From positions 1 to 56,599 of IMG/VR virus record IMGVR_UViG_3300033233_000046: DNA of 56,599 nucleotides; one strand, written 5' to 3'. Below, piece after piece: positions 2,941 to 54,113 of the stretch. This stretch comes from a virus. Position 1 is the first letter of the stretch. Every line of letters begins with the position of its first letter. A program made the translations under genes and the position numbers. The notes under the pieces were generated by a model. It searched no databases. It was not told the origin of the DNA and saw nothing but the letters and a program-made list of their open reading frames with translations.

Positions 2941-4394
2941 ACGAGAAACAAAAACAGAGAACGATACTTAAACTCCAACTTGAACGCGAGAGGGAGATTA
3001 AGCGCAACCTCGCTGCTAAAAGGGCTATCGCTGAATATAAGGACAAACACAAGAGTGAGTTCTTTGTTCCGTTTCCTCATCAACAAAAGGCAATTGATTT
3101 TATAGAGGAAGGAAAAAAAACGGTAGTTCTACAAGGCGCGAATCAGGTTGGAAAAACTGCGACAACCGTTAATCTTATGAACACGTTTATGAATGGGTGC
3201 GTTAGGGCCTGGGGAGAGAAAAAACCGCTATATCCTTCTGAATTTTCAAAGGTCAATGCCGGGAAGAAAATAATAGGGAGGATACTCTGTAACAACTGGG
3301 AAACTGCCGCCAAGGATACCATTGTGCCTAAGCTAAAAGAATTTCTACGGGACGGCACTTATGAGATGAAAAAGAATACAGTGGGGGTCGAGCATGAGTT
3401 TATTTTTCCAAAGACAAGTTCTAAATTTACCATTCTTACTTACAAGGAAGATACTAAGTCTCATGAGGGCTGGACGGGCGATGTGGTAATTTGTGATGAG
3501 CCACCCCCACGCGATAAATATATAGCCAATAGAAGAGGGTTAATAGCCCGTAACGGAGTAATGATTATCGCTATGACCGCCATAAGCGAGGATTGGATTC
3601 TTGATGAGATAGTCCTTAAACCTGACAGATCGGTTGGTGTGGTAGGCGACATCCCCATAGAAGCCAACACTACACTTACACCAGAAGCCATTAGAGTGTT
3701 TGAGCAATCCCTCACTGAAGACGAGAAGGTAGCCAGAATCAAGGGCGGCTGGTTACAACTGACAGGACGGATATGGAAGGTTTTTAGTACTGACACCCAC
3801 GTAGTGAGACCCTTTAAAATCCCTCCTGACTGGCCCTGTTCCTTTCAAATAGACTTTCATTTGGACATTCCCCATGCGATAAGCTTTTGTGCTGTGGACC
3901 CTCTAAATAGATTTTTTATCTTCGATGAGGTATGGCTTAATATCGGCAATAAGGAAATAGCCGATGAGATAGCCCGCAGGAAGATAGGACAGGTGCTCAG
4001 AATGAAGTATGGAGAGATAGATGCGCTATCAAAAGGAGATACCTCTTATACGAGAAACAGGTTTGGTACTACGGAGGCTTCTTTTGAACAGATAGGGAAG
4101 GAACTCAGAAAGTATAGCATTACATTGGGTGTAGGCTCCAAGGCCGAGAAAGATTATATTAAGGCTGTTGAGACAAGGCTGAAGGGGCCTAACGGTATGC
4201 CAACCCTTTTTATTTTTGATACCTGTACTGAGACTATTAAACAGGTTCAAAGATGGAGTTATGATAATAATCACCAGCCTAAAGCAGACGGGCATTTTCC
4301 TGAAGCTATTGGTAGATTTACGCAACAAGGGCTTAAATACACTGCACCGGACTTGCAGACTAAGCAGTTACAATACGCGGAGATGGTGATATGA
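2937..4394 (+). CDS. terL: Terminase large subunit
   Basis: 485 residues, with ATPase and nuclease domains that cut and pump DNA into the prohead through the portal. Walker A is GANQVGKT (67-74) and Walker B is VVICDE (183-188), with the acidic pair DE as in Terminase_6-like proteins. An adenine-motif-like segment (PFPHQQKAIDF) precedes Walker A. The RNase H-like nuclease starts around 300 (FQIDFHLDIPHAISFCAVDP), with candidate metal-binding Asp306 and Asp310 and a later DTC segment near 430. The start is a GTG overlapping the previous stop; no ATG upstream gives a better start. Length and order fit an intact enzyme. Confidence 0.93.
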   Translation: MNEKQKQRTILKLQLEREREIKRNLAAKRAIAEYKDKHKSEFFVPFPHQQKAIDFIEEGKKTVVLQGANQVGKTATTVNLMNTFMNGCVRAWGEKKPLYPSEFSKVNAGKKIIGRILCNNWETAAKDTIVPKLKEFLRDGTYEMKKNTVGVEHEFIFPKTSSKFTILTYKEDTKSHEGWTGDVVICDEPPPRDKYIANRRGLIARNGVMIIAMTAISEDWILDEIVLKPDRSVGVVGDIPIEANTTLTPEAIRVFEQSLTEDEKVARIKGGWLQLTGRIWKVFSTDTHVVRPFKIPPDWPCSFQIDFHLDIPHAISFCAVDPLNRFFIFDEVWLNIGNKEIADEIARRKIGQVLRMKYGEIDALSKGDTSYTRNRFGTTEASFEQIGKELRKYSITLGVGSKAEKDYIKAVETRLKGPNGMPTLFIFDTCTETIKQVQRWSYDNNHQPKADGHFPEAIGRFTQQGLKYTAPDLQTKQLQYAEMVI

Positions 4395-4635: not shown

Positions 4636-6609
4636 ATGACACAGGAAGAAAGATTAACGTACTGTAAATTGTGGATAACCCGTCTAAATGGTCAGTGGTC
4701 CTCGCTTGATACAGACAGGACAGACGCTCTCCGTTTTTGTAATGGCGATCCCACCATAGTCAAGCTCATTACCGGCAGATCACAGGTAGTTACTCATGAT
4801 ATGCAGGATGCTATTGATTCAGCTAAGCCGGACATCCTTGAGACTCTAGCAGGAACAGACGAACCTTTAAAGCTTGATCCTACTGGAGCAGAGGATGTCG
4901 AACCCGTTAAGAAGCTTCAGATACTCGCCAATATCCAGGTTAAGCGTAAAAACCCATGGTTTAGGCGGTGTGCTGACTTTCTTGATGATTCCATGAAGTT
5001 AAAGTTCGGATGCTTTAAATATCAATGGATAGAGAAGACGAAGGCCATTGAGAAGATATATGAAGATGCTAATGATATTGAGATTAAAGAAAGGGTTATG
5101 TCCGGGGCAACAATTATTAAAGATGAAATGGTAGACGGCAAGAGGCGAACCACGTTGAGCACCGAAACTTACGATGAATATGTAGAGATAACAACCCCTC
5201 CGACCGAGAGAGTTAAATTTCCCATAGATTGCAGGGGTTTTTCAACTGCTCCTTTCGTATGGGAAGAGGTCAGGCTTTATGAGGAAGAGTTCAGGACGCT
5301 TTACGGTAAGGATGTTTTGGATAAGGTCAAGGATATACAGGAGAATCTTTCCAGACCCGAAGTAGATTCCATTCAACAGGAAAGGTTCAAAGACGTAGGT
5401 GGAGTTAAGTTTATCTATGATGGTGATACAGGGAAGTATAAAGCCCATGAATGCTATTTTCATGAACCTGACGAGAATAGGGCATGGCTATTTGTCTTTA
5501 GTGGAGATGAGGTAATTCTGGATGAATACAACAAGTATGACAGACCTCCATATGAAGGAGGCTCACCGTTCCTTGTGGCCCATAGGCTACTGTCTTTAGG
5601 ATATTTCGATTATCTCAAAGAGATTCAGAAAGAGCGGACATTCTTCAAGCGACAGATATTTGACAACGTAACTCAGGCTAATTACCGGCGATACTTCGGC
5701 GATCCTGAGCGGTTGAATATGGATGACTTCTTAAATAACAATGCCACCAATGCTCTAATAAGAGTAGACGGCGATCCATCCAAGGTTGTTATGGCAGAGC
5801 AGAAGGCTCCAATCCCCGCCGAGGTTCTTGACTTTTGGGAACTTATGAATGTCGAAAAGGATTATCACTTGCCTACTCCAAGGTCATTTACCGGAGTAGA
5901 CCCCAAGAAGGCGCAACGGACATGGCGGGGGCAGGCGCAACAGACTAATTTAGCTCAAAAGAAGCTTCTTATGATGATAAGGGGATATATGGAGGATGTG
6001 TTTTCTCCGCTCTTCAATGACGTTATAGACTGTATTCTTAAATTCATGAAGAAGAAAGTCTCAGTCCGGTATCTCAATGAAGACTACAATATCAATCCCG
6101 ATAATATAATCGGTAAATTCGATCTCGTGGTGAATGTTGGACTAGGCTCTCACGATAAAAATGATATGGTAATGAAGCTCCAGCAGCTCATTGGCCTATC
6201 TGCAAAGCTTATGGAAACGGGCGTTGTCACTCCCCAGAACCTTCATTATATGACTCAGGAGCTTGTGAAGGCTATGGGCTTTTTGAATACAACCGACTTT
6301 GTGACAGACCCGAAATTGAAAGAAGCCATTGTCAAATTTATTATGATGGTCAGCCAGATGCTCCATAAGATGAGCATGGTCCCTGAACTTCAGGCAGACG
6401 TAGCCCAGATAGCCCCTCAACTCTATCAGGAGATAAGCGAAATCAGCATGGCACTCGGTATGCCTATGGGAAAGCAGAAAGGGCAGGGAACGCTACCGGG
6501 TGAGAATGTAGCACCACAAGCAGAGGTTCCCGGTCAGGCATTGACCGAAGTAATGGCTATAGATGGAGCCGGTAGGGGTAATGGTGGAGGAATGGGGTTG
6601 CATGTTTAA
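4636..6609 (+). CDS. Portal protein (P22-type)
   Basis: About 657 residues from the ATG at 4636, chosen because AAGGAGAGG precedes it; the frame is open from a TTG at 4618. The dodecameric portal forms the packaging vertex. The N-terminal third (WITRLNGQWSSLDTDRTDALRFCNGD; MKLKFGCFKYQWIEKTK), the central region around residue 330 (YFDYLKEIQKERTFFKRQIF), and the RSFTGVDPKKAQRTWRGQAQQ segment with helices near 440 match the P22/T7-like podovirus portal plan. The Met/Gln-rich C-terminus resembles a barrel/tail region. It sits between the terminase and scaffold genes. The next gene begins inside its last codons. Confidence 0.88.
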   Translation: MTQEERLTYCKLWITRLNGQWSSLDTDRTDALRFCNGDPTIVKLITGRSQVVTHDMQDAIDSAKPDILETLAGTDEPLKLDPTGAEDVEPVKKLQILANIQVKRKNPWFRRCADFLDDSMKLKFGCFKYQWIEKTKAIEKIYEDANDIEIKERVMSGATIIKDEMVDGKRRTTLSTETYDEYVEITTPPTERVKFPIDCRGFSTAPFVWEEVRLYEEEFRTLYGKDVLDKVKDIQENLSRPEVDSIQQERFKDVGGVKFIYDGDTGKYKAHECYFHEPDENRAWLFVFSGDEVILDEYNKYDRPPYEGGSPFLVAHRLLSLGYFDYLKEIQKERTFFKRQIFDNVTQANYRRYFGDPERLNMDDFLNNNATNALIRVDGDPSKVVMAEQKAPIPAEVLDFWELMNVEKDYHLPTPRSFTGVDPKKAQRTWRGQAQQTNLAQKKLLMMIRGYMEDVFSPLFNDVIDCILKFMKKKVSVRYLNEDYNINPDNIIGKFDLVVNVGLGSHDKNDMVMKLQQLIGLSAKLMETGVVTPQNLHYMTQELVKAMGFLNTTDFVTDPKLKEAIVKFIMMVSQMLHKMSMVPELQADVAQIAPQLYQEISEISMALGMPMGKQKGQGTLPGENVAPQAEVPGQALTEVMAIDGAGRGNGGGMGLHV

Positions 6610-41496: not shown

Positions 41497-42012
41497 ATGT
41501 ATGAACTTGTTTCATGGATTGAGTATATGGACAATATCTTGTTTCTAACGAGCAAGGAACTTACGACAAAGGAGGGCCGGGAACTGAAAAAATATCTCGG
41601 TGAGCAGTTCGAGAACGACATCAAGGGGCATGGGGCCATTAGAAAATACTACGGCCTTAAAAGCAATAAAGGAAACGATAGGGAATGCAACGATTTCTCT
41701 TCGACAAAAAAATTCCCGCCCGAAATTGTGAAGGCTATCAAGGAGGGATTATTCGAGGGCATTGGCATTGCTGTAAACATTCTTACCCCTAAAGCGTTAG
41801 CTGAGTACAAGAAGGTGGAAGGGCAGGCGTTAGCCGAGTACAAGAAGGTGCGAGGGCAGGCGTGGACTGAGTACAAAAAAGTGGAAGGGCAGACGTTAGC
41901 TGACTACAAGAAGGTGCAAGGGCAGGCGTTAGCTGAGTACGAGAAGGTGCAAGGGCAGGCGTTTTGGAGCCTCGTGAAAATAGCAGGGAATAGAAGAGAA
42001 GAATGGAAGTAA
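41497..42012 (+). CDS. Repeat protein with ALAEYKKVxGQ units
   Basis: 171 residues. An N-terminal helical domain (about 1-95) is followed by five 11-residue repeats (ALAEYKKVEGQ, variants with W/T/D/Q) at residues 100-154 and a final degenerate unit (WSLVKIAGNRREEWK). The repeats predict a long amphipathic helix or coiled coil. Such AEY-KV repeats occur in other phage proteins of unknown role. GGAGG precedes the ATG. Confidence 0.6.
   Translation: MYELVSWIEYMDNILFLTSKELTTKEGRELKKYLGEQFENDIKGHGAIRKYYGLKSNKGNDRECNDFSSTKKFPPEIVKAIKEGLFEGIGIAVNILTPKALAEYKKVEGQALAEYKKVRGQAWTEYKKVEGQTLADYKKVQGQALAEYEKVQGQAFWSLVKIAGNRREEWK
41794..41958 (+). repeat. 33-bp tandem repeat, 5 copies
   Basis: Five 33-base units beginning GCGTTAGCTGAGTACAAGAA, in frame with the coding sequence. 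Units are similar but not identical, so they are older than the 63-bp array at 46509. Confidence 0.85.
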
Positions 42013-42965: not shown

Positions 42966-43340
42966 ATGAAATATAGGGACTTTATACAGTCAAAACAGAT
43001 TGTTGATAACCCCTGCGGTATATCTGTGAATGGTGATCTTAACCCGATGCTCTTTGGATTCCAGCACGATATTGTCAGGTGGGCGGTTAAGCGTGGACGC
43101 GCTGCAATATGGGCGGATTGTGGCCTAGGCAAAACTCCAATGCAGTTAGAGTGGGCGCGTCATATCCCCGGTGATGTCCTTATCCTTGCCCCCCTTGCGG
43201 TATCTCAACAAACAATCAGAGAGGGGGACAAATTCGGTATTGAGGTAAATTACTCTCGCCATCAGGAACAAGTGCAGTCCGGCATAACTATCACCAATTA
43301 TGAAATGCTCCACAACTTTGATGCACAAGCAACTCTGTAA
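42966..43340 (+). pseudogene. SNF2-type helicase, N-terminal piece
   Basis: 124 residues. MKYRDFIQSKQIVDNPCG..LNPMLFGFQHDIVRWAVKRGRAAIWADCGLGKTPMQLEWA carries a Q-like motif and Walker A (GLGKT), followed by VLILAPLAVSQQTIREG and ITITNYEMLHNFD. In related phages this starts a helicase fused to a DNA methyltransferase. Here the frame stops right after motif Ia/II-type NYEMLHNFD, and the helicase core (DEAD/H box, motifs III-VI) is missing. The following ORF carries the far end of the same fusion. Confidence 0.75.
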
Positions 43341-43800
43341 AGATTCTGCTATCTGCCGTTCTGGATTGCCTGATTATCTTATCACTATGAGAAAGCCAGG
43401 GGAGAACATGGAACCTATATCTCACCCCAATGGTCTTGAGGAGTTTCATGGAGACAACTCACCCACTAAAGGAGTGCTCTCACACGAACGGTGGAGGCGG
43501 TATGCCTCACCCGTATGGATGGATATTAATCAGACTGACACACTCCAATATTCATCGGCAAGAGAAGAAAAGGACGAAAGGCACATATGTCCGTTGCAAC
43601 TCGATACCATCCGGCGTGGGTTGCACCTTTGGACAAATCCCGGCGATCTTGTCCTCTCACCTTTCGCAGGTATCGGATCAGAAGGCTATGTTGCCTTAGA
43701 AATGGGGAGGCAATTCATCGGTATGGAGTTGAAGGAATCCTACTTCAAGCAGGCCGTAAACAATCTGAGGAACATTAAGAAACAGGGAATACTCATATGA
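43300..43800 (+). pseudogene. DNA methyltransferase, C-terminal piece
   Basis: 166 residues as an ORF. From about residue 20, the sequence matches the end of the helicase-methyltransferase fusion: GLPDYLITMRKPGEN, RWRRYASPVWMDINQT, HICPLQLDTIRRGLHLWTNPGDLVLSPFAGIGSEGYVALEMGRQFIGMELKESYF. FAGIG is the AdoMet-binding motif I. The catalytic DPPY-type motif that precedes it in the beta class is absent, so it should be inactive. The join with the helicase piece is out of frame near 43330-43350 and removes roughly 1.3-1.7 kb by comparison with my memory of relatives. Confidence 0.75.
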
Positions 43801-43902: not shown

Positions 43903-44100
43903 TTGATTTTTAAGGCATTACAGAAAGCTCCAGAGTCTGCCGTCCTGCCATTGGACGACTCCCCAAAATTCAATGATTTTCGCTGCTTGAAGCAGTTCCC
44001 ATTATACCCCAAACTCTCAAAAACTGTCAAAATTCACCAAAAACCTTACCAAAAACCTTACCAAATTTTCGTGGGTGGTGATGACGGGGTCGGGTCGTAA
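43903..44100 (+). CDS. Hypothetical protein (TTG start)
   Basis: 65 residues from a TTG with GGAG 9 bases before. Pro/Lys-rich, ending in a duplicated KPYQKPYQ encoded by tandem CAAAAACCTTAC. Not recognised; may be short or only partly coding. Confidence 0.35.
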   Translation: MIFKALQKAPESAVLPLDDSPKFNDFRCLKQFPLYPKLSKTVKIHQKPYQKPYQIFVGGDDGVGS

Positions 44101-44257
44101 CGGACAGCCGAGGATCAGGGACGAGGTGATGAAGATAAGGGAGTTGTGGCGTCGGCACGAGGGCGGAGAGATCAGCAGAGAGGAAATGGAGGAGGAACTG
44201 AGGAAGCTGAGACGTCCGCCGTTGTTTTCTAAATTTGAAGACGAGGAAAGGAGGTGA
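44081..44257 (+). CDS. Small charged helical protein
   Basis: 58 residues from the ATG at 44081. GRNGQPRIRDEVMKIRELWRRH, EGGEISREEMEEELRKL. Strong amphipathic helix, G+C-rich codons. Start of a visibly G+C-richer island (about 44080-44880). Function unknown. Confidence 0.5.
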   Translation: MTGSGRNGQPRIRDEVMKIRELWRRHEGGEISREEMEEELRKLRRPPLFSKFEDEERR

Positions 44258-44262
44258 TGAGA

Positions 44263-44535
44263 ATGCATTACAAGGACGGGACCGTAGCGCAGATCGGTGA
44301 TTTAGCGAAGGGCACAACTTACAATCGCCAGGGCGAACGTGTTGGCACTATCGTCTCGATAACGCCGGGGTCAGATTTGTGCAATTGCAAGCTGGCGAAC
44401 ATTATCGAGGTTAAGCCCGAAGAGGCTTGTGAGCACGAACACTTATTTATGATTGTTCAACCCGATGGGAGCCGACGACTCTTCAAGGTGGACGTCGATT
44501 ACACGGAAGTGAAGGCGCTGGAAAAGGTCGCCTGA
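44263..44535 (+). CDS. Phage-type hypothetical protein (MHYKDGT family)
   Basis: 90 residues from the ATG at 44263, chosen for AGGAGG 8 bases before; starts at 44254 and 44257 are possible. MHYKDGTVAQIGDLAKGTTYNRQGERVGTIVSI is a pattern I have seen in unnamed phage proteins with a small beta-barrel, followed by CNCKLAN and a VDVDYTEVKALEKV end. Directly upstream of the ubiquitin-like gene, so possibly co-expressed. Confidence 0.55.
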   Translation: MHYKDGTVAQIGDLAKGTTYNRQGERVGTIVSITPGSDLCNCKLANIIEVKPEEACEHEHLFMIVQPDGSRRLFKVDVDYTEVKALEKVA

Positions 44536-44544
44536 GGAGGAAGA

Positions 44545-44793
44545 ATGCCGTTAACGATTTTGATAAACAATATGCCTTACGAGGTCCCGAAGCCCGCGAT
44601 GACCGGCGAGGAGATCAAAGAGCTTGCCGGTGGGCCGATGGATTACTGGCTGGTGCTTAGGAAAGGTTCCCCTGATCCCGTAGCCGGCGAAGATAATGTA
44701 CGCATTGAGGATGAAGAAGCCGTGGACATGCAGTCCGGAATGCAGTTCAGGATTATTAATGCCGCGACTTTCGGGGCATTGCAGGCAGCCTGA
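44545..44793 (+). CDS. Ubiquitin-like (multiubiquitin-family) protein
   Basis: 82 residues, one beta-grasp domain. LTILINNMPYEVPKPAMTGEEIKELAG is the strand-strand-helix start (with the TG-E-I/L-LA motif of bacterial multiubiquitin-family proteins), DYWLVLRKGSPDPV and EAVDMQSGMQFRII give the later strands. The end is ATFG followed by ALQAA, so a Gly sits just before a 5-residue tail that a JAB-type peptidase could remove. No E1, E2 or JAB gene is found in the window. GAGGAGG precedes the ATG. Function as a conjugated tag, or as a decoy for a host ubiquitin-like defence system, is inference. Confidence 0.72.
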   Translation: MPLTILINNMPYEVPKPAMTGEEIKELAGGPMDYWLVLRKGSPDPVAGEDNVRIEDEEAVDMQSGMQFRIINAATFGALQAA

Positions 44794-44798
44794 AGGCT

Positions 44799-44879
44799 GG
44801 GCCGGGGATGGCACGGGAGGATGGACAGGGAGAAAACTTCTCCCGGCGTAATAAGGTCCTTGTCTAACCCGGCCCTTTT
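44799..44879 (+). terminator. Nested hairpin and T tract after the Ubl gene
   Basis: GGGCCGGG (44799-44806) pairs with CCCGGCCC (44868-44875), followed by TTTT. The enclosed region has a second perfect hairpin, GGGAGAA (44828-44834)/TTCTCCC (44838-44844). Could be a terminator or a structured RNA. Confidence 0.5.
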
Positions 44880-44938: not shown

Positions 44939-45391
44939 ATGAAATCCTATAACTTCATCATCCTGGGCAATCCTCTTGCACAGGGGCGCCCTCGGTTCTT
45001 TGTCCGTCAGGGAAAGAGCGGTGGTAAGTTTGTCGGTGCCTACGATCCGGCGACATCGAAGAGTTGGAAGGAAACAATCAAGTGGCAGGTAATAGAACAG
45101 AAACCGGAAATAATCAGCGGTCCTGTCGCCATGACTCTCCATTTCATGCTTCCGAGACCGAAAGGGCATTTTAGAACAGGAAAAAACGATAAGGTATTGA
45201 AACCCTCAGCACCGAAATATCACATCGTTAAGCCCGATATTGATAATCTCGAAAAAGCCGTGAAAGATGCACTAAGGAGCATTTGTTATAGAGATGACTG
45301 TCAGATAATTTCTACAACCGTCACGAAAGAATACGGCAATCACACAACGGGCGTGAACATCGAACTCACGGAGGTTATTAGTGGCACTTAA
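44939..45391 (+). CDS. rusA: RusA-like Holliday junction resolvase
   Basis: 150 residues. NFIILGNPLAQGRPRFFVR and LHFMLPRPKGHF then KPDIDNLEKAVKDALRSICYRDDCQI are the RusA motifs, including the catalytic Asp cluster (KPDIDNL, RDDCQI). It dimerises and cuts four-way junctions, probably resolving recombination intermediates before packaging. GGAGGAATAAATC precedes the ATG. Length matches the family; a second, broken copy lies at 53883. Confidence 0.9.
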   Translation: MKSYNFIILGNPLAQGRPRFFVRQGKSGGKFVGAYDPATSKSWKETIKWQVIEQKPEIISGPVAMTLHFMLPRPKGHFRTGKNDKVLKPSAPKYHIVKPDIDNLEKAVKDALRSICYRDDCQIISTTVTKEYGNHTTGVNIELTEVISGT

Positions 45392-46064: not shown

Positions 46065-46387
46065 ATATTAGGCATGGAGATTTAGTACTTATCGGAATTG
46101 AGAAATTGCCAGAAGGACTCACGGCTACGGAAGCAACGGTAATTATGAAGGGTAGCGGAGGGAATGACCACACAGTTGTGAAGGGTGTGATCTATCCGAA
46201 TGCTGATAGGCAATTTATTGTCGGCTATTTGGAAGCGAAAAGAGGTTGCAGACTTCTTCATCCCGAACATGGGAAAAACAGAAAGATAAGTGGCGATTTG
46301 CGCATAGTTCGCATCCCCCAAGGATTCTATGAGTTGCGCAGGCAGTCAGAAGATACCCACAATGGCATGGTGAAGGTGGTGGACTGA
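46061..46387 (+). CDS. Phage HGD-family small protein
   Basis: 108 residues. RHGDLVLIGIEKLP at the start, VIMKGSGGNDHTVVKGV and YELRRQSEDTHNGMVKVVD at the end match a small phage beta-barrel protein I have seen with this layout, often paired with a DUF6745-like repeat protein as here. Function unknown; ATGA overlap with the gene before. Confidence 0.6.
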   Translation: MNIRHGDLVLIGIEKLPEGLTATEATVIMKGSGGNDHTVVKGVIYPNADRQFIVGYLEAKRGCRLLHPEHGKNRKISGDLRIVRIPQGFYELRRQSEDTHNGMVKVVD

Positions 46388-46388
46388 G

Positions 46389-47882
46389 ATGAACAAGATT
46401 GAAAAGAAAGACACCAACAGGATTTATCAGGGCAATATCACTATCAGGAATGCCGAGGTGTGGCATGCGTTTATAAAAAAATACGATGCAATTACGGGCT
46501 ACATCGACATGCGGGGCTGCACAGGACTCACCTCTATCACATTCCCAGATAAGGTGATGGGCTCCATCGACATGCAGGGCTGCACAGGACTCACCTCTGT
46601 CACATTCCCGGATAAGGTGATGGGCTCCATCGACATGCAGGGCTGCACAGGACTCACCTCTATCACATTCCCAGATAAGGTGACGGGCTCCATCTACATG
46701 CATGGCTGCACAGGACTCACCTCTATCACATTCCCGGATAAGGTGATGGGCTCCATCGACATGCAGGGCTGCACAGGACTCACCTCTGTCACATTCCCAG
46801 ATAAGGTGACGGGCTCCATCGACATGCAGGGCTGCACAGGACTCACCTCTATCACATTCCCAGATAAGGTGACGGGCTCCATCTACATGCAGGGCTGCAC
46901 AGGACTCACCTCTATCACATTCCCGGATAAGGTGACGGACTACATCGAGATGCAGGGCTGCACAGGACTCACCTCTATCACATTCCCAGATAAGGTGACG
47001 GGCTCCATCTACATGCATGGCTGCACAGGACTCACCTCTATCACATTCCCAGATAAGGTGATGAGCTACATCGAGATGCAGGGCTGCACAGGACTCACCT
47101 CTGTCACATTCCCAGATAAGGTGATGGGCTACATCTACATGCAGGGCTGCACAGGACTCACCTCTATCACATTCCCAGATAAGGTGACGGGCTACATCGA
47201 GATGCAGGGCTGCACAGGACTCACCTCTGTCACATTCCCAGATAAGGTGATGGGCTACATCGACATGCGGGGCTGCACAGGACTCACCTCTATCACATTC
47301 CCGGATAAGGTGATGGGCTCCATCTACATGCAGGGCTGCACAGGACTCACCTCTATCACATTCCCAGATAAGGTGATGAGCTACATCTACATGCAGGGCT
47401 GCACAGGACTCACCTCTGTCACATTCCCAGATAAGGTGACGGGCTACATCTACATGGACGACCGGTGCTCAGAAGCTTTACTCTCCATGCAACACAAAAG
47501 GATCATATACCGCATTAGCGCAGTGCAGTTCAACAGGGATCTCTTCGATAAAGTACGTCACGATGACCTCTCTGCCCAGGAAGTCTTCTCGATCACCAAT
47601 ATGGAACAGCGCCGAATCGCCTATGAGCGCATGGACAAGATCAAGATGAAAGACATGCCTGGCTTTAAGACGCTCCACGAGGTTGCCGATGATGGGCGCG
47701 GTTATCCAATGAAGGTTGTGAGCTTCACAGTGGAGGGCTACAACGAACCATTCAAGTTCCTGAACTGTTTTTGTCCGTCAACGGGGAGGGAATACTTTTT
47801 GGAGACAAAACAGGATACGTGTGAGGTTGCGAAGGCGAAGAGTTTTGGTTTCGACAGACTGACGTTCGATGAGGAGTATTAA
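46389..47882 (+). CDS. 15-repeat solenoid protein with DUF6745-like end
   Basis: 497 residues. After a 40-residue start (NRIYQGNITIRNAEVWHAFIKKYDA), 15 repeats of 21 residues (GCTGLTS-[IV]-TFPDKV-[MT]-[GSD]-[SY]-I-[DYE]-M-[QHR]) run from about 41 to 355. Only a handful of positions vary. The period fits a beta-solenoid or leucine-rich-like coil. The C-terminal ~140 residues (FKTLHEVADDGRGYPMKVVSF, FKFLNCFCPSTGREYFLETKQDTCEVAKAKSFGF) are a domain that occurs at the end of DUF6745-like proteins. Role: unknown, maybe a binding scaffold. Repeat number may vary among isolates. Confidence 0.75.
   Translation: MNKIEKKDTNRIYQGNITIRNAEVWHAFIKKYDAITGYIDMRGCTGLTSITFPDKVMGSIDMQGCTGLTSVTFPDKVMGSIDMQGCTGLTSITFPDKVTGSIYMHGCTGLTSITFPDKVMGSIDMQGCTGLTSVTFPDKVTGSIDMQGCTGLTSITFPDKVTGSIYMQGCTGLTSITFPDKVTDYIEMQGCTGLTSITFPDKVTGSIYMHGCTGLTSITFPDKVMSYIEMQGCTGLTSVTFPDKVMGYIYMQGCTGLTSITFPDKVTGYIEMQGCTGLTSVTFPDKVMGYIDMRGCTGLTSITFPDKVMGSIYMQGCTGLTSITFPDKVMSYIYMQGCTGLTSVTFPDKVTGYIYMDDRCSEALLSMQHKRIIYRISAVQFNRDLFDKVRHDDLSAQEVFSITNMEQRRIAYERMDKIKMKDMPGFKTLHEVADDGRGYPMKVVSFTVEGYNEPFKFLNCFCPSTGREYFLETKQDTCEVAKAKSFGFDRLTFDEEY
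46509..47453 (+). repeat. 63-bp tandem repeat array, 15 copies
   Basis: Exactly 15 x 63 = 945 bases, from the ATG codon at 46509 to the base before the ATG at 47454. Units are nearly identical, with variation at a few codons, so the array has expanded recently or is kept uniform by recombination. The open antisense frames across it are by-products of the 3-multiple period. Confidence 0.95.
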
Positions 47883-53747: not shown

Positions 53748-53878
53748 GCACATTCAAACGGATTTGGATTGAGTACGAGGACGAGAAGGGAGATATTTAT
53801 CTGGTTCCGGCATCGAATGAAGAAGTAAAAACAATTCTTTATGAACTTACTGATATTCTGTCATTGCAAAAAAGGTAG
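53744..53878 (+). CDS. Small hypothetical protein
   Basis: 44 residues (ATGA overlap). Acidic alpha/beta peptide (FKRIWIEYEDEKGDIYLVPAS). AGGAGG precedes the ATG. Unknown. Confidence 0.45.
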   Translation: MSTFKRIWIEYEDEKGDIYLVPASNEEVKTILYELTDILSLQKR

Positions 53879-53882
53879 GGGC

Positions 53883-54113
53883 ATGAGCAAATATACTTTC
53901 TTGATTTTAGGTGATCCCATAGCACAGGGCAGACCTCGTTTTACACGGTCTGGACATACGTATAATCCTAAGCGGTCTAAGGACTGGAAGAACGAGATTA
54001 AACGCCAGATGTTAAGGAAAAAGCCAAAAGTGCTTTTAGGCTCCCTATTTATGGTGCTTCAATTCGCGCTGAGAAGGCCTAAGAGCGTTGGTAGGCAACG
54101 ACAACTGTGTTAG
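53883..54113 (+). pseudogene. Second RusA-like gene, truncated
   Basis: 76 residues from the ATG at 53883. YTFLILGDPIAQGRPRFTRSGHTYNPKRSKDWKNEIKRQM is the RusA start, closely related to the copy at 44939. After LRRPKS the sequence turns into foreign DNA (about 54085) that is the 3' end of an ISNCY-type transposase gene, so the catalytic DxxDN part is lost. The break may be a transposon-linked deletion or an assembly join. Confidence 0.85.

Follow-up and report, generated by a model that had tools for sequence, protein, structure and literature searches.

A lone Multi_ubiq-family ubiquitin-like protein in a tailed phage and a second phage copy beside an E2 remnant

The Ubl gene and its neighbourhood

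The window, by which we mean the whole 56,599-nucleotide stretch analysed, is a linear virus contig of 56.6 kb that may be a fragment, and it derives from a tailed phage whose portal is of the SU10 type and whose coat is of the P22 type. An ORF that starts with ATG (44545-44793, +) encodes an 82-residue ubiquitin-like (Ubl) protein, identified by its reading frame, Pfam match and predicted fold as a single-domain member of Multi_ubiq (PF14452). A direct reading of the sequence places a Shine-Dalgarno AGGAGG (44535..44540, +) four bases 5′ of the ATG. The stop of a 93-residue ORF (44254..44535, +), to which no family is assigned and for which no homologue is found among 50,697 phage records, is spaced 10 bp from the Ubl start, and the two genes are probably carried on one transcript. 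A candidate 60-residue ORF (44075..44257, +) overlaps the start of the 93-residue ORF and has a high GC3 like that of the Ubl gene. The G+C content of the Ubl gene is 0.534, where genes average 0.457 (sd 0.036), and its GC3 is 0.63, where they average 0.46 (sd 0.09). The G+C-richer island described in the initial annotation is thus borne out as an enrichment common to the Ubl gene and the two upstream ORFs (44075-44257 and 44254-44535), although the ORFs at 46389 and 47885 have a GC3 as high. Downstream, the nested hairpin that had been seen after the gene is real (44800..44874, +; z of −2.4 for a fold of 106 nt) and has UUUUC on its 3′ side; it is a possible weak terminator, and a simple terminator pattern scan did not call it. 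A reading of the same hairpin as a member of an RNA family was rejected, as it matches no Rfam family.

By Pfam, the neighbours of the Ubl gene belong to DNA metabolism: an N6/N4 methylase piece, RusA and a radical-SAM-like DUF5131 gene. An N-terminal helicase-like ORF (42966-43340, +) continues, with a change of frame, into the C-terminus of a DNA methylase (43300-43800, +), and because the end of PHROG 16, a long helicase family, matches the latter ORF, the pair looks from its sequence like an internally deleted helicase-methylase gene. The window phage has two RusA-like resolvase genes (53841-54113 and 44939-45391, +), the second one being short. Farther from the locus, a transposase-like helix-turn-helix ORF (106-597, −) lies at the far left contig end, and a 497-residue BspA-type LRR_5 protein (46389-47882, +) is built of a 63-bp tandem array (46496-47456; 15.3 copies, 93% match), across part of which a 267-residue antisense frame (46215-47018) is open. 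A 171-residue ORF with 33-bp (11-residue) repeats (41497..42012, +) has a VSWI(E/D) homologue in the second phage described below, with 47% identity over 36 residues (E 1.3e-5); its link to the Ubl is uncertain. A protein beginning M(Y/C)E(L/F)VSWI(E/D) occurs near the Ubl in both phages, the copy of the second phage (L149 12898-13002, +) being cut at the contig end. The portal protein of the window phage finds matches of 24-28% identity in three of the 297 genomes of the phylum to which a Desulfacinum MAG belongs, which gives no host call.

Family, fold and C-terminus of the window Ubl

The window Ubl matches only Multi_ubiq (PF14452) in a Pfam hmmscan, as one domain with E=1.7e-8 and 35 bits, a score well clear of chance given the curated cut-off of 24.5 bits. 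A profile search within its own genome gives 33.9 bits; PHROGs, NCBIfam and PADLOC return no match. The AlphaFold2 model (pLDDT 80, pTM 0.69), for which the input alignment consisted of the window Ubl and one other row, the Ubl of the second phage, exhibits the order β-β-helix-β-β-β, with strands at residues 3-7, 10-14, 35-39, 51-54, 59-61 and 67-71 and a helix at 21-28, whereas the helix modelled at 73-81 comprises the last nine of its residues at low-to-middling confidence. The best nine Foldseek matches in the PDB are all bacterial multi-ubiquitin chains. In VIA-align, the bacterial multi-ubiquitin (BilA/BubA) structures reach Z 8-11.1, the closest being at Z 10-11, whereas FERM domains, ISG15 and ubiquitins remain at Z ≤7.5 (ordinary ubiquitins ∼7), and the model is that of a ubiquitin-like β-grasp fold. 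Nothing better than E 0.05 is retrieved from the BFVD viral structure library, which thus offers no close viral counterpart. The structure prediction and profile search that the initial annotation had proposed therefore both agree with its assignment of the product to the multiubiquitin family with a β-grasp fold. The closest solved folds, those of the Ubls BubA and BilA from the Bub (bacterial ubiquitination-like) and Bil (bacterial ISG15-like) systems (PDB 9d59, 9d5b, 8u38, 9cd2 and 9ea8; Z 8-11), differ from the window Ubl in having more than one Ubl domain, in sharing 12-27% identity with it and in belonging to operons with E1, E2 and peptidase.

The protein ends in a conserved ATFG (residues 74-77; codons at 44764..44775, +), the last residue of which is the putative reactive Gly77, followed by an ALQAA tail (codons at 44776..44790, +) that, judging by the tails of relatives, may be removed by a peptidase. 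A74, T75, F76 and G77 are invariant among the Ubls of the window, the second phage, a Desulfobacterota-sample operon and a Deinococcus plasmid operon. The tails after Gly in cellular relatives are 1-7 residues long (L, NQ, AR, GGV and SPPDEHA), with ends that read PPATFG-NQ, PPATFG-GGV, PPATFG-L, PPTAFG-SPPDEHA and KPPTNFG-AR. The ATFG plus five-residue tail singled out at first reading hence has comparable ends in relatives from E1/E2 operons, and ATFG followed by a short tail is, as judged from these alignments, a genuine mark of the subfamily, with the tail itself variable. In a conjugable Ubl the C-terminal Gly would be free or exposed by a peptidase; here Gly77 bears a five-residue tail like those of relatives, and this tail is modelled as partly helical. 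The window Ubl reads NAATFG where relatives read PPATFG, such that the PP is lost, and it carries a five-residue loop insertion.

Lambdoid phages use a Ubl, TAPI, encoded in the tail cluster, in tail assembly (PMC1779556). TAPI and the window Ubl are alike in being β-grasp Ubls of tailed phages with a conserved Gly, whereas TAPI is ThiS/MoaD-related, has a second domain and lies beside TAPK (JAB+NlpC), and the window Ubl matches Multi_ubiq only. An identity with TAPI (lambda tail I) was rejected on the grounds that no TAPI match is found in Pfam or PHROGs and that the neighbour is RusA, not tail genes.

Cellular operons, absent partners and a second phage

Ubl genes of this subfamily normally stand first in Ubl-E2-E1 (sometimes JAB-E1) operons. 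The locus nearest in style, L083, encodes an 82-residue Ubl ending in PPATFGNQ, a Prok-E2_E protein and a Prok-JAB fused to ThiF; with L013, L300, L301 and L303 it makes up the relatives with the same type of tail that lie beside E2 and E1, in a partner survey that leaves out the Planctomycete loci L084-L095 and takes L011 and L012 without a Pfam check for E1. Operon type 6e of Iyer et al. (2006) already includes one solo Ub-like domain, Amac (PMC1779556). Like the type-6e operon Ubls of L083 and the Deinococcus plasmid L013, with which it shares 33-35% identity over the protein, the window Ubl is a single PF14452 domain with an ATFG end and a short tail, but those Ubls precede E2 and E1, whereas the window Ubl is alone, without PP before ATFG and with the loop insertion. 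In the annotated records examined, plasmid Multi_ubiq proteins adjoin E2 and/or ThiF-type E1 genes and are often preceded by an HTH and ImmA/IrrE pair, an arrangement similar to that in which CapH+CapP (helix-turn-helix + peptidase) control Bub operons (PMC13373217). In the L006 operon an IS element breaks the gene order downstream of E2 and JAB, and in L300 two different Ubl genes (3175-3762 and 5987-6250, +), both with an FG-tail, flank one E2 and E1. Multi_ubiq is found in 2/297 genomes of the phylum of the Desulfacinum MAG and 12/246 of that of a Planctomycetia MAG, and a four-row subfamily profile in 3/398 and 4/296 genomes of two further phyla, low counts that mark the family as rare in whole-genome samples.

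As stated in the initial annotation, no E1, E2 or JAB is found in the 56.6-kb window by Pfam scans of its ORFs, and E1/E2 profiles built from operon proteins have no match in either the window or the second phage, whereas the same local profiles find E1 at 8/8 and E2 at 5/8 cellular Ubl regions. The adjacent E1, E2 and peptidase genes of a Bil, Bub or type-6e system are not found in the 56.6-kb record, and the enzymes are likely absent from the virus itself, although the record may be incomplete. No relative of the window Ubl is present among the 50,697 phage records, and tblastn in phages gives nothing at E 0.01 and, below threshold, only stretches of Lactobacillus phages (E 3-8). In IMG/VR, scans with motifs or back-translated sequence yield no relative except through two motif patterns that meet in one contig, L149, and such pattern scans overlook divergent genes, the IMG/VR yield being no estimate of prevalence in viruses; both scans of genome contigs yield no relative. 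L149 is the sole Multi_ubiq case among the ∼150 IMG/VR contigs checked by profile. The search for the same lone gene in phages, proposed at the outset, thus turned up one further case, and a phage-encoded Multi_ubiq protein is described in none of the phage records, viral families and open papers searched and may exist elsewhere; from these searches, the phage cases known would be two only.

The second phage (IMGVR_UViG_3300018005_000022; L149/G549) is a 44.7-kb IMG/VR contig of a tailed phage, the Ubl of which is confirmed as Multi_ubiq by profile and lies 350 bp from the right end of the contig, with partners absent. It resembles the window phage in its lone Multi_ubiq Ubl, its related TerS and TerL (TerL 31%, TerS-like protein 34% and one further protein 29% identity) and its VSWI(E/D) neighbour gene, and differs in that its Ubl has an N-terminal coiled-coil-like extension and an intact PPATFG and is followed by a remnant of E2. 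The two phage Ubls share 37% identity, and the window Ubl is 32-37% identical to its relatives overall. The terminase large subunit of the second phage (L149 4456-7044, −) gives an intein-splicing match below the threshold, and antisense within the same stretch lies an ORF for an HNH endonuclease (5952-6605, +).

The DNA match between L149 and L083 begins ∼30 bp ahead of the Ubl, covers the gene (78% of nucleotides shared) and ends ∼35 bp into E2. The E2 remnant would encode MTPIELQLQVLQMIK and then a stop, and its ∼35-bp match does not arise by chance, as it is equalled by 0/2000 shuffles and by 0/10,846 other 42-mers of the second phage, whereas the next 300 bp of L149 score like shuffled sequence against L083. 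Beyond the remnant, the VSWI gene, a homologue of that in the window phage, starts 240 bp after the Ubl; that this gene is common to both phages speaks for phage DNA rather than host flank. Thus, at least the lone Ubl of the second phage was excised from a conjugation operon of a host, and since remnant and gene show about the same similarity, its capture probably postdates the divergence from the lineage of L083. Over 75 codons, the L149 and L083 Ubls differ with a pS of 0.77 (saturated) and a pN of 0.058, pairwise values that mix cellular and phage history, such that the constraint is not assignable to phage life; with the 18 residues that lead up to Gly identical as well, they indicate that the Ubl protein, including its enzyme-facing end, is strongly constrained. 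On the 3′ side of the window Ubl no donor-operon remnant is recognised by eye, and an operon origin is suggested by its family membership and the absence of partners. A tree of 20 rows places the window Ubl among the FG-tail rows (95/88), apart from the L149 Ubl, on a long branch and with rough support, which hints at separate acquisitions in the two phages.

Possible roles of a lone modifier

Some operons of this type had been said at first reading to act in antiphage defence, a role that is less firm than was assumed there. Bil attaches Ubls to phage tail fibres (PMC12948488), whereas for Bub operons an antiphage effect is not shown (PMC13373217). With its reactive end conserved but no partners, the Ubl would be useful mainly in an enzyme-bearing host, which argues for action in trans. 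We tentatively favour, at a little under an even chance, that the window Ubl is a lone modifier of the Multi_ubiq subfamily acting in trans on host Ubl enzymes, most likely as a competitor or decoy. Phages would take up the Ubl alone from a Ubl-E2-E1 operon and the extra Ubl would be made early in infection; host JAB, E1 and E2 could accept it because its fold and C-terminal TFG are kept, and by competing for these enzymes or tying them up it may prevent the host Ubl from being attached to its targets. The change of PP to NA, the loop insertion and the helix-prone tail of the model point weakly to a pseudo-substrate. The same features also weigh against this reading, since for conjugation the tail of a Ubl must be free and extended, and the lack of a host call leaves no particular Ubl system to point to. 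The window Ubl has no known close relative, and selection on the gene itself is not measurable. Somewhat less probable again is the broader proposition that phages repeatedly capture the Ubl modifier alone as a weapon in trans, a ubiquitin mimic that would be either a jamming decoy or a phage-serving tag.

Action in trans as a competitor or decoy has to be weighed against four other explanations. The Ubl may be accidental cargo, a recently acquired host gene without benefit, as might be read from the G+C-richer Ubl gene with its short run of adjoining ORFs and from the imprecise capture that the E2 remnant of the second phage represents; however, both of two distantly related phages (TerL 31%) keep the gene in intact frame, the window Ubl retains fold, frame, core residues and TFG despite its 32-37% identity to relatives, and a good ribosome site precedes it, and we regard cargo as unlikely. 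Exploitation, in which host E1 and E2 would conjugate the phage Ubl to phage or host proteins to the benefit of the phage, is consistent with an A-T-F-G end conserved in both phages and, in the second phage, the same as the cellular one up to Gly, yet evidence for a target is absent and the PP-to-NA change and helix-prone tail of the window Ubl fit poor conjugation at least equally; its probability seems low.

A β-grasp protein re-used inside the phage, for instance as an adaptor in DNA metabolism or assembly that takes no part in conjugation, would accord with a gene placed between methylase, RusA and radical-SAM-like genes, with the precedent of TAPI, from another Ubl family, in lambdoid tail assembly (PMC1779556), and with the long tree branch and lost PP motif, but an adaptor would not need the Gly and removable-looking tail that are kept, and the gene of the second phage is in a different context; we consider this as improbable as exploitation. 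That the phage encodes a complete Ubl system, the remainder of which is missing from a linear and perhaps fragmentary contig, is highly improbable, as cellular partners follow the Ubl directly, whereas the window Ubl is followed by the hairpin and RusA and that of the second phage only by a broken E2 start. Taken together, exploitation, cargo and a re-used adaptor all rank below action in trans as a competitor or decoy.

A known Ubl family is here found alone on phages. Ubl conjugation in bacteria was discovered recently, and for several operon types, Bub included, the role is unproven. The gene of the second phage with its scrap of E2 suggests that viruses acquire Ubl genes from host systems, which they might then block or turn to their own use. 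If this is true, a phage that carries the modifier only, and a second with the scar of the theft, would provide an independent line of evidence from nature for the importance of these systems in infection, and the two phage Ubls offer ready test proteins for whether phages block or exploit Ubl systems.
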